In this document: piece by piece, positions 2,291 to 23,446 of the stretch | Layout of the letters: every line of letters begins with the position of its first letter | How positions within the stretch are numbered: position 1 is the stretch's first letter | From: a virus | DNA length: 29,861 nucleotides | Virus record (IMG/VR): IMGVR_UViG_3300032236_000891 | Span: 1-29,861 of that record | Direction: 5' to 3' (one strand) | Notes under the pieces: generated by a model | The model's database searches: none | What the model was told of the DNA's origin: nothing | Seen by the model: the letters and a program-made list of their open reading frames with translations, nothing else | Translations under genes and position numbers: made by a program

Positions 2291-3010
2291 ATGTCATCTT
2301 GGGGAAATAACGATAACGCAGCTAACGCACCATATTGGGCAGTTAGTTCAGCGATTGCAAAATCAGACGCATCACACGTTGTTGCTATGCCAACAGCAGC
2401 CAACGTTGCTGTTTTGTATGGTAACACTACACCTGATGCTTACATCACTGGTGAAACTATTGGTTTGTTTATGGTTGACCAAAACGAACAAGACGTACAG
2501 AAAACACTAGGAACTCCACCTGCACACAAAGGTTGGAATATTAAAACAACTGGTTCTGGTGGACGTGCTGGTCGTGTTCAATGGGAAACTTTGGTTGCAT
2601 TATCAACTGTCGATGATGATAATAGTGCTGATGATACTGTATTGCCAGATGCGATAATTACAATCACATCACAACCTGCATCAGTACAGACAGTCAGTTT
2701 CTCTAGTGCAGATACTCTGACTTACTCAGTAACAGCAGCAATTACATCTGGTGCAACTGGTGCTCCATTGTCATACCAGTGGCAAGTTAATAACAACACA
2801 GGCGGTACATGGGTTGATATTCCAGGCGGCACGAATGTAACAACTGGCCAACCTGGTCAGATGACCAAAACTGGTGCTACTACAGCAAACTTGGTTTTGG
2901 ATCCAACAGGTGCTTCGGCAAACAACTATGTGTTCCGTTGTAAAGTTTACAACTCTGATGCAGGTGCTACAGCTTACTCAGCTAACGGCCGTATCTTGAT
3001 TACTGCTTAA
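2291..3010 (+). CDS. Virion protein with C-terminal Ig-like domain
   Basis: 239 aa. Residues 1-105 form a small domain starting MSSWGN, with a Gly-rich GSGGRAGRVQWETLVAL segment; I recall similar small proteins encoded among structural genes of T4-like cyanophages. Residues about 118-239 look like an Ig-like beta-sandwich: Thr/Ser/Val-rich strands, a YQWQVN strand and a later FRCKVYN strand as in Ig domains of phage surface proteins. Such domains often decorate capsids or tails and may bind carbohydrate on the host surface. The start is fixed by AAAAGGAG six bases upstream. A hairpin terminator follows the stop, so it is the last gene of its transcript or nearly so. The exact virion location is unknown. 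Confidence 0.75.
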   Translation: MSSWGNNDNAANAPYWAVSSAIAKSDASHVVAMPTAANVAVLYGNTTPDAYITGETIGLFMVDQNEQDVQKTLGTPPAHKGWNIKTTGSGGRAGRVQWETLVALSTVDDDNSADDTVLPDAIITITSQPASVQTVSFSSADTLTYSVTAAITSGATGAPLSYQWQVNNNTGGTWVDIPGGTNVTTGQPGQMTKTGATTANLVLDPTGASANNYVFRCKVYNSDAGATAYSANGRILITA

Positions 3011-3015
3011 TTAAC

Positions 3016-3036
3016 AGGGGGTTAATCACCCCCTTT
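3016..3036 (+). terminator. Hairpin terminator after the Ig-domain gene
   Basis: GGGGG (3017-3021) and CCCCC (3029-3033) form a perfect stem, extended by A3016-T3034, with a 7-base loop and a short T-run after it. It sits seven bases after the stop codon. The T-run is only three bases, so termination may be partial and allow read-through into the next gene. Confidence 0.65.
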
Positions 3037-3040
3037 CAAT

Positions 3041-3427
3041 ATGTTTGATGATTTAAATGATGACAATTTTTTGATGTATGCTATAAAATGCTATACTTCA
3101 CCTCATTGTATACAATCTGAATTTGACGGAGATATCAAAAGGACAAAATACCTGAAAAGGTTATTTCGTAGATACAAGATAACTAAATCCGTCAAAGAAA
3201 GATTAATTTTAAATCATATCATACTATTGAACAATGTTTTTGGTCCAGTTGCAACTGCAAGAATATTGTTCTATAGGATAGATGAACGTGATTATGATAT
3301 ACTGAAATCTTTTCTTGCTTATCTTAATATTATGCCAGATGTGATTTATGGAATCAGAGGAAAGAATATCTACACTCAAGACATTCCATTAGAACAAAAC
3401 ATACTAGAAATACTAAGAGCAATATGA
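3041..3427 (+). CDS. Conserved T4-type phage protein of unknown function
   Basis: 128 aa, mixed helical, basic in the middle (a KRLFRRYK stretch near residues 46-53) and hydrophobic afterwards (LNHIILLNNVFGPVATARILFYRI). I recall small proteins of this pattern in many T4-like phages, annotated as a DUF7207-type family; this was not checked. There is no obvious Shine-Dalgarno before the ATG, which lies just after the terminator hairpin, so translation may be weak or the transcript may start upstream. Its stop overlaps the next start in an ATGA. Function unknown. Confidence 0.65.
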   Translation: MFDDLNDDNFLMYAIKCYTSPHCIQSEFDGDIKRTKYLKRLFRRYKITKSVKERLILNHIILLNNVFGPVATARILFYRIDERDYDILKSFLAYLNIMPDVIYGIRGKNIYTQDIPLEQNILEILRAI

Positions 3428-20846: not shown

Positions 20847-21494
20847 TTAAGCGACCACAGCCAAGCGTATAACCTTCGCCATTTTTCTGCCGTGTGCCGG
20901 ATACCCTATCACCGCAACGCTTTTATCATAGCAAGCACGGCAACCCGAGCATTTGCCGCCATTCTCATAAGCACGGCAGAGCGTCACACCTGCTGGCACC
21001 GAGCTAGCATCAGGTAAAATTGTAGAACCATGCACGCTTGAGGTAAAAGTTCCGTCTATAGCGTCACTGCTAGGGCGCACCATTACATTCGGCAGTGCCT
21101 GCATTTTGGCAATAATCTGCTGATATTTTGGAAATTTATGCATGCGAGTAGGGAGCCAATGCTTGACGTGCGGGGTTTTAACCATCACCTCGTACATTTT
21201 AAGAGCGAGAGCAATAGAGTACATGTCACCAGAATCAAACCAGCGAAAGTAGGACTGGCGCTTGAGAGCGGCAACCATTGTATCCACCCAGCTGTCTTCC
21301 TGCCATGCTTGCTTGTTGTCAGCACGGACAGCTTTGGTACCAGGGAAATTGTAAGTGCCCTGCGTTGCGTAACAACCAGAGCAAGCGGGAACCAGATTAC
21401 CAGTAGAGTCAACCGAGCCAGAACATGTTTCCAGAGCCTGAAGCGACCAGCTCATGATATTGTCGAGCTTACTGGTTTTAGATAATTTATTCAT
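20847..21494 (-). CDS. Phage gp88-family Cys-rich protein
   Basis: 215 aa from the ATG at 21494, with AGGAC before it and a promoter upstream; a start 60 bases further upstream lies inside the promoter and is rejected. It begins KLDNIMSWSLQALETCSG and has a first Cys cluster (ACSGCYAT, about residues 37-44) and a second, KCSGCRACYD, near residues 186-195. FRWFDSGDMYS and KHWLPTRMHKFPKY lie between. This matches the Gene product 88 family recalled from mycobacteriophage and other phages; its function is not established. The Cys clusters suggest a metal or Fe-S site. It is the last gene of the minus operon but also has its own promoter. Confidence 0.75.
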   Translation of the reverse strand: MNKLSKTSKLDNIMSWSLQALETCSGSVDSTGNLVPACSGCYATQGTYNFPGTKAVRADNKQAWQEDSWVDTMVAALKRQSYFRWFDSGDMYSIALALKMYEVMVKTPHVKHWLPTRMHKFPKYQQIIAKMQALPNVMVRPSSDAIDGTFTSSVHGSTILPDASSVPAGVTLCRAYENGGKCSGCRACYDKSVAVIGYPAHGRKMAKVIRLAVVA

Positions 21495-22549: not shown

Positions 22550-22577
22550 AATACTTGACCGGAGAAACTGAGAACTT
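22550..22577 (+). repeat. 28-bp repeat, copy 1 (promoter upstream element)
   Basis: Identical over 28 bases to 28573-28600; the start is AATACTTGACCGGAG and the end GAGAACTT. In both copies TTGACC starts exactly 33 bp before the TTGCCA -35. Outside these bases and the promoter hexamers the flanks differ, so the element is conserved as a unit. Confidence 0.85.
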
Positions 22578-22587
22578 TTTCGCTATA

Positions 22588-22615
22588 TTGCCAAATGGGG
22601 CGGAACCTGTATAAT
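22588..22615 (+). promoter_or_regulatory. Plus-strand promoter firing into non-coding DNA
   Basis: TTGCCA (22588-22593), 16-bp spacer, TATAAT (22610-22615), with the 28-bp upstream element. Expected start near 22622. No gene starts before 23038, which has its own promoter, so the product is probably an RNA. Confidence 0.75.
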
Positions 22616-22621
22616 TGGAAA

Positions 22622-22822
22622 CATTCGAAAGCGACTGGGATGCACACGGTGCCTGCGTACGGTTTGATCCGAAAACAAAAGGTTTAATACCGGCGCCGCA
22701 TTAGAACTTTTTTCTTATTCCGAGAGACGGATTGAAACCAAAAGGTCACACGCTCGACCATTGATAGTCATTTTGTTTTCATTCCGTGTGATCCTGTAAT
22801 GATCCGGTATTAATCCGGCATC
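22622..22822 (+). ncRNA. Predicted structured non-coding RNA
   Basis: No coding frame is convincing here and a promoter ends just upstream. Complementary arms nest: P1, GGAT(G)CACACGG at 22638-22649 with CCGTGTGATCC at 22784-22794 (11 bp, one bulge); P2, GAAAACAAAA 22671-22680 with TTTTGTTTTC 22771-22780 (10 bp); inside it P3, 22681-22692 with 22728-22739 (GGTTTAAT-A-CCG with CGG-ATT-G-AAACC, 11 bp, two bulges) and a short P4, GGTC 22744-22747 with GACC 22756-22759. A last hairpin, CCGG-TATTAAT-CCGG, is at 22804-22818. This gives a branched RNA of about 160-200 nt. Bases 22684-22693 could instead pair perfectly with 22804-22813, an alternative fold. No known RNA family is recognised and no terminator is obvious. 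The fold was derived by eye. Confidence 0.55.
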
Positions 22823-22877
22823 TGACCTACAAACTAAGACTTTGGTGTTACACTATACTGGCGACACGGTTAGCGAT

Positions 22878-22896
22878 AATGAGAATCATTCTCATT
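22878..22896. promoter_or_regulatory. Fur box (perfect 19-bp palindrome)
   Basis: AATGAGAAT-C-ATTCTCATT is a perfect 9-1-9 palindrome, and with the preceding GAT it gives GATAATGAGAATCATT, a near-exact match to the proteobacterial Fur consensus GATAATGATAATCATTATC. No iron gene lies next to it. The nearest gene start is about 140 bp downstream (23038). Confidence 0.75.
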
Positions 22897-22913: not shown

Positions 22914-22934
22914 TTATCCACAGAGTTATCCACA
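22914..22934 (+). other. Two tandem perfect DnaA boxes; candidate replication origin or DnaA decoy
   Basis: TTATCCACA occurs at 22914-22922 and 22926-22934, same orientation, 12 bp apart, both identical to the strongest E. coli DnaA box. The pair TTATCCACAGAGTTATCCACAG is typical of chromosomal origins. An AT-rich stretch, ATTTTATACTGAAT, follows. Together with the non-coding setting this suggests a DnaA-dependent origin or a DnaA-titrating site. Confidence 0.75.
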
Positions 22935-22984: not shown

Positions 22985-23012
22985 TTGCCATTTTACAGTT
23001 TTTGCGTATAAT
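22985..23012 (+). promoter_or_regulatory. Promoter of the 130-aa protein gene
   Basis: TTGCCA (22985-22990), 16-bp spacer, TATAAT (23007-23012). ACCGGAG at 22956-22962 lies 29 bp before the -35, matching the upstream box at other promoters. Confidence 0.75.
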
Positions 23013-23037
23013 TGTATTTTTAACTGAGAGAGATATT

Positions 23038-23430
23038 ATGTTACAAGTAGAAAAATTGAATACTTTTGTTTCTGATTCATTCTTAGAAACTATCATGGGT
23101 GAAACCGAAAGTATTATTGCAAGTGTTGAAGATTTTGTGGATGAATACAAATGTGTTACAAGTCTTGATGAATTTGAAACCATTCGTTTTATTGCTGAAG
23201 AATTACAAGAAAAAGTATTAGATTTTGCTTGTTCTGTAATGAATTATGATACATTATATGAAATTGAAGAAATTAGTATTACATTGTATCAGCATATTAA
23301 GTATTCTGTACAAGAACTGGCTGAAATGAATACTTTTGATTTCAATTCGGATGAAATTGAGTACTTGTGTTCTAGTATTGATATTATTCGTGATGAAATT
23401 GATACTTTAGTACTCCAGTTGAAAAACTGA
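23038..23430 (+). CDS. Acidic helical hypothetical protein
   Basis: 130 aa from the ATG at 23038, chosen because GAGAGAG precedes it and the promoter -10 is at 23007; an in-frame ATG at 22879 would place coding sequence through the Fur and DnaA sites and the promoter. Acidic, almost all helix, two Cys, no membrane segment. It is the only gene between the hub region and the next promoter. Function unknown. Confidence 0.6.
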   Translation: MLQVEKLNTFVSDSFLETIMGETESIIASVEDFVDEYKCVTSLDEFETIRFIAEELQEKVLDFACSVMNYDTLYEIEEISITLYQHIKYSVQELAEMNTFDFNSDEIEYLCSSIDIIRDEIDTLVLQLKN

Positions 23431-23446
23431 GAACTATTGACTACGG

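Follow-up and report, generated by a model that had tools for sequence, protein, structure and literature searches.

A conserved array of DnaA boxes in T4-like phages as a probable docking site for host DnaA

Introduction

Phages of the T4 type are the textbook case of replication that is independent of the host initiator. T4 origins are of the R-loop type and are not known to use DnaA.

In Escherichia coli, DnaA in vivo favours pairs of boxes 2 or 3 bp apart, as seen by ChIP-seq; binding drops strongly when the spacer grows by one base, and double DnaA boxes of this kind mark DnaA-bound promoters (Stringer, Fitzgerald and Wade 2024, PMC11317965). DnaA boxes are already known in phages: those in the injection-stop region of T5 are mentioned in a 2026 paper (PMC13250531), and a phage origin with DnaA boxes has been predicted using Ori-Finder (PMC11512268). 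A literature search covering few subscription journals found neither a conserved array in T4-like phages nor a virome-wide spacing signature, nor did it find a general survey of phage DnaA boxes.

Here, we describe a pair of DnaA boxes in a virus record of 29,861 bases, analysed whole (the window) and forming part of a phage genome. Judged on sequence comparison, selection has very probably kept the pair as a place for host DnaA to dock in this clade of T4-like phages.

The box pair and its surroundings

The primase, RNase H and large peptidase-family protein encoded in the window are of T4-superfamily type. The best named matches to the primase (44–46%) are from cyanophages and Methylophilales phages, and no named phages with DNA similar to the window were found. 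Two perfect-consensus DnaA boxes, both TTATCCACA and both on the plus strand, lie at 22914–22922 and 22926–22934, as originally noted for this intergenic DNA. The spacer is 3 bp (GAG), giving a 12 bp period in which the pair consists of two copies of AGTTATCCACAG, and TTATCCACA occurs nowhere else in the window. Of 100 shuffles, 9 contained at least two copies of it somewhere, so that their presence is by itself not rare; the Markov expectation in the window is 1.5e-4 for a same-strand pair 0–30 bp apart and 9e-6 for one with a 2–3 bp spacer. As two same-strand boxes with a spacer of 2 or 3 bp, the pair is a double DnaA box.

Divergent gene blocks flank the ~550 bp of non-coding DNA in which the boxes sit. 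On one side, the minus-strand block includes a GP88-family gene (20847–21491); on the other, the plus-strand block comprises small genes of no known function, several with strong sigma-70-like promoters. The sole ORF that crosses the boxes starts at 22879 and adds an upstream stretch to a gene with a likely ATG at 23038. This gene (23038–23430, plus strand), likely the first of its block, encodes a small acidic protein of 130 amino acids and unknown function, with which as query a scan found no relatives. A promoter-like sequence, TTGCCA-N16-TATAAT, matches the consensus 50 bp past the second box (22985–23012, plus strand), and similar promoters are found all through this region of the window. 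Of the 51 bp duplexes no further than 200 bp from the boxes, the least stable, a candidate unwinding region, spans 23006–23056, is centred at 23031 and lies at most ~100 bp from the boxes. Its stability is among the bottom 0.2% for the window (the bottom 1–2% for its equivalents in relatives), bearing out the AT-rich stretch first noted beside the boxes. This minimum overlaps the promoter, and the AT-rich stretch, which falls on the promoter and the 5' leader, may be no more than promoter DNA.

Further features were seen around the boxes. A Fur-box-like palindrome, GATAATGAGAATCATTCTC, at 22875–22896 matches the Fur consensus at 17 of 19 positions and includes a perfect 19 bp palindrome at 22878–22896. 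It precedes the DnaA pair by 20 bp, an arrangement found with the same distance in L516 and L519, where none of the window genes tested had a protein match, and more loosely in L515, L517 and L518. The arrangement was not clearly in excess of the control. Fur and DnaA sites as a general module were considered and rejected: GAGAATCATTCTC lies 5–35 bp from TTATCCACA in 5 viral stretches (3 for the reversed-DnaA control), and Fur-like sites matching at 15 or more of 19 positions are hardly enriched near 172 viral box pairs (2, against 2 in 860 background samples).

Upstream, another TTGCCA-N16-TATAAT sequence (22588–22615, plus strand; a consensus match only) reads towards the boxes and is present in the relatives L122 and L137 too. 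The non-coding DNA downstream of it (22618–22830), strongly conserved among L122, L137 and the window, is a possible leader or small RNA. Evidence of RNA folding upstream of the boxes is weak, with z-scores of -1.3, -1.3 and -2.2 and few covarying pairs, and no Rfam match to RNA there was found. An 18 bp motif like GAAAAATTGAATACTTTTG recurs in and around the early genes, in both coding and non-coding DNA (22562–22579, 23053–23070, 23323–23340, 23354–23371 and 23421–23438).

Conservation of the array in related phages

Relatives were collected via the GP88 gene, yielding sixteen loci. A same-strand DnaA-box array is present at the site in each of the six close relatives (77–92% identity in the GP88-family protein) whose contigs span it (L122, L137, L123, L124, L125 and L128); L126, L127 and L132 were left out as their contigs begin too near the GP88-family gene. 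Spacers in the six arrays are mostly 2 or 3 bp, while the individual boxes turn over. In L122 and L137, two perfect boxes 2 bp apart are followed by weaker boxes and, at the end, another perfect one; we interpret this series as five slots in phase, separated by 2, 3, 2 and 3 bp. The remaining four arrays run TTATCCACA, then TTATACACA or TTATGCACA, TTATACACA and TTATCCACA, the last three having spacers of 2 and 3 bp. The second box of the window aligns with the final box of L122 and L137 and is retained in context; its other box is perfect where theirs is weak, and its Fur-like palindrome, which the relatives lack at the array site, occupies the position of their first boxes.

Because spacing and strand are kept while boxes change, selection for DnaA binding, and not shared descent alone, probably accounts for the array. 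The suggestion that these are real DnaA sites in a T4-like phage looks correct, and the check for loss of the boxes in close relatives leaves it standing, since every informative relative keeps an array. What follows the array is also similar: an equivalent promoter (TTGCCA-N16/17-TATAAT) lies 46–58 bp past the last box in the window and the six relatives, and a homologue of the acidic ORF comes next in five of them (37–38% identity in L123, L124, L125 and L128).

The 180 kb relative G001 (179,754 bp) is probably a complete circular assembly, as it has a 127 bp end repeat. Nowhere in this genome do strict boxes cluster tightly except in the array (P ~3e-7), at 169.5 kb and ~10 kb from that repeat; strict boxes overall number 14 against 10 for the reversed control, with no general excess. 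Clusters, mostly non-coding by crude ORF calls, are found in the more distant relatives G011, G010 and G009 and were not found in the similarly more distant G002, L129 and L133, a gap that counts against the docking site. Both G001 and G002 encode gp23, a gp59-type loader, a DnaB-type helicase and a family-B polymerase, the genes by which relatives were assigned as T4-like. No match to a DnaA-family gene was found in either genome, and for this reason the ligand of the boxes is probably host DnaA.

Box pairs across viral contigs

The exact 21-mer of the pair occurs in at least 120 viral stretches and the reversed 21-mer in none. A second scan of viral contigs, for TTATCCACA pairs 0–30 bp apart, gave 166 non-redundant pairs among the matches listed, spaced by 2 bp (32 pairs), 3 bp (35), 4 bp (11), 11–13 bp (39) and 20–25 bp (29), which places the peaks at 2–3 bp and then one and two helical turns further. 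Among the matches listed for the reversed motif, spacings are mostly multiples of 3, so these pairs are read as coding repeats. Roughly half of 172 viral pairs listed lie outside ORFs, compared with 13% non-coding DNA in the same contigs, on crude ORF calls and with some contigs possibly plasmid or host DNA; the spacings of this set are not used as evidence because it includes pairs collected by the 3 bp pattern. The gaps that hold viral pairs are long (median 600 bp vs 210 bp) and are somewhat more often divergent (22 of 78 cases vs 16%). Relative to flanking genes, 24 pairs have the same and 21 the opposite orientation, showing no bias, and convergent gaps are included.

Named phages with pairs or arrays, mostly with 2–3 bp spacers, are found among the T5-like phages and the Studiervirinae, along with lactococcal phage 949, Microbacterium phage Big4 and Arthrobacter phage Seahorse. 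Individual examples include Pseudomonas phage phiK7A1 (L392, 1503–1577), with two double DnaA boxes, inverted and 33 bp apart, in a long intergenic gap; bajarodmic virus 162 (L523, 1783–1837), a 5.6 kb microvirus with five perfect boxes in non-coding DNA and spacers of 2, 2, 3 and 3 bp; and the viral contig L030, where six copies of TTATCCACA run with a 12 bp period on the reverse strand (~3005–3073).

That similar pairs are present in many unrelated phages suggests that phages commonly use or capture host DnaA. It is possible, though tentative, that many unrelated phages independently evolved modules in long non-coding gaps at which a DnaA dimer docks to start or time their own replication. 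The range of such modules, marked by 2–3 bp spacing and helical phasing, could, with similar caution, extend over T4-like, T5-like, Studiervirinae, lactococcal and actinobacterial phages as well as ssDNA microviruses. Taken together, the array at one site through the T4-like clade and the virome-wide DnaA spacing suggest that virulent phages exploit or sequester host DnaA more often than has been supposed.

Possible roles of the array

It is highly likely that host DnaA binds the pair as a dimer or short oligomer. What it would do there is a more tentative matter, the most likely role in our estimation being an early start of replication through the bound protein. Soon after entry, host DnaA would sit on the boxes and help to open the AT-rich promoter DNA just downstream, where the phage gp59-type loader, helicase and primase would then begin an early round of replication. 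We rank origin opening first because of the long non-coding position, the adjacent unstable DNA, the mixture of strong and weak boxes that relatives show and, in the wider viral set, the lack of gene-orientation bias. Several observations speak against it. DnaA would not be required for helicase loading, since G001 and G002 encode both a loader and a DnaB-type helicase, and neither a DnaA-trio nor an IHF consensus was found near the arrays. Measured against an oriC-type array, the window has two boxes, and L122 and L137 have as many as five slots in phase. Cumulative GC skew in the circular G001, proposed at the outset as a check for an origin, has no inflection at the array, which also speaks against an origin there; this is a weak test, as a single strand carries nearly all the genes and there may, as in T4, be several origins.

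A different role, as a transcription factor, is rather unlikely but deserves weight: bound upstream of the early promoter at 22985–23012, host DnaA would activate or repress the acidic gene and those near it, tying early expression to the DnaA level of the host. The near-constant distance from last box to promoter and the recurrent acidic ORF homologue fit this well, as do the double boxes at DnaA-bound promoters of E. coli (PMC11317965). Similar promoters occur throughout the region, however, so that nearness may mean little, and the orientations of the wider viral pairs, convergent gaps among them, are not those expected of promoter control.

Titration of DnaA in the manner of datA, with boxes multiplied by phage replication binding host DnaA and halting host initiation, we regard as improbable. 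Perfect, clustered boxes, up to five per genome in the relatives, would suit such a sink, but there is a single tight cluster per genome, G001 has no general excess of boxes and the window has two only. The datA locus needs IHF, combining an IHF site with several boxes, and no IHF consensus was found within 300 bp of the arrays. Nor was a DnaA-trio (at least three repeats) found within 80 bp of them, and with both elements missing, a copy of oriC is unlikely. The broader idea of captured host DNA that is functionless in the phage, whether taken from oriC or from a promoter at which the host has both Fur and DnaA sites, seems very improbable to us. The 21-mer is common in bacterial genomes and, in the window alone, a Fur-like palindrome adjoins the boxes; against this, the array is held at one site across a diverged clade despite box turnover, viral contigs follow the DnaA spacing rule, and a DnaA signature lies beside the 21-mer at 0 of 120 viral loci against 18 of 120 bacterial ones. 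The original proposal of a borrowed piece of a host origin thus fares poorly, and docking of host DnaA for an early replication start is the reading that we prefer.

Comparison with known systems

The locus shares features with several described systems and differs from each in others. Like the DnaA-oligomerisation region of oriC, the arrays of L122 and L137 have strong boxes with weak ones between, phased by 2–3 bp spacers; unlike it, the phage arrays have no DnaA-trio or IHF consensus nearby, and in the larger relatives there is a phage helicase loader, no dnaA gene was found (G001 and G002) and no skew change was seen (G001). The T5 injection-stop region, in another virulent phage, likewise has TTATCCACA pairs with a 3 bp spacer in a long non-coding stretch, although the T5 boxes form part of the terminal repeat and are linked to DNA transfer in two steps, whereas the site described here appears internal to a T4-like genome. 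Bajarodmic virus 162 also combines perfect boxes and 2–3 bp spacers in non-coding DNA, but is a small ssDNA phage of an unrelated lineage in which the array adjoins the replication initiator gene at its 3' end. The arrangement also matches that of the E. coli double DnaA box (Stringer, Fitzgerald and Wade 2024, PMC11317965), with boxes on the same strand and a 3 bp spacer, and in the window both are perfect; the difference is that the E. coli examples are bacterial promoters, whereas here binding is predicted and the site is in a phage. With T4 origins, finally, the locus has in common an upstream promoter and unstable DNA in a T4-like genome.
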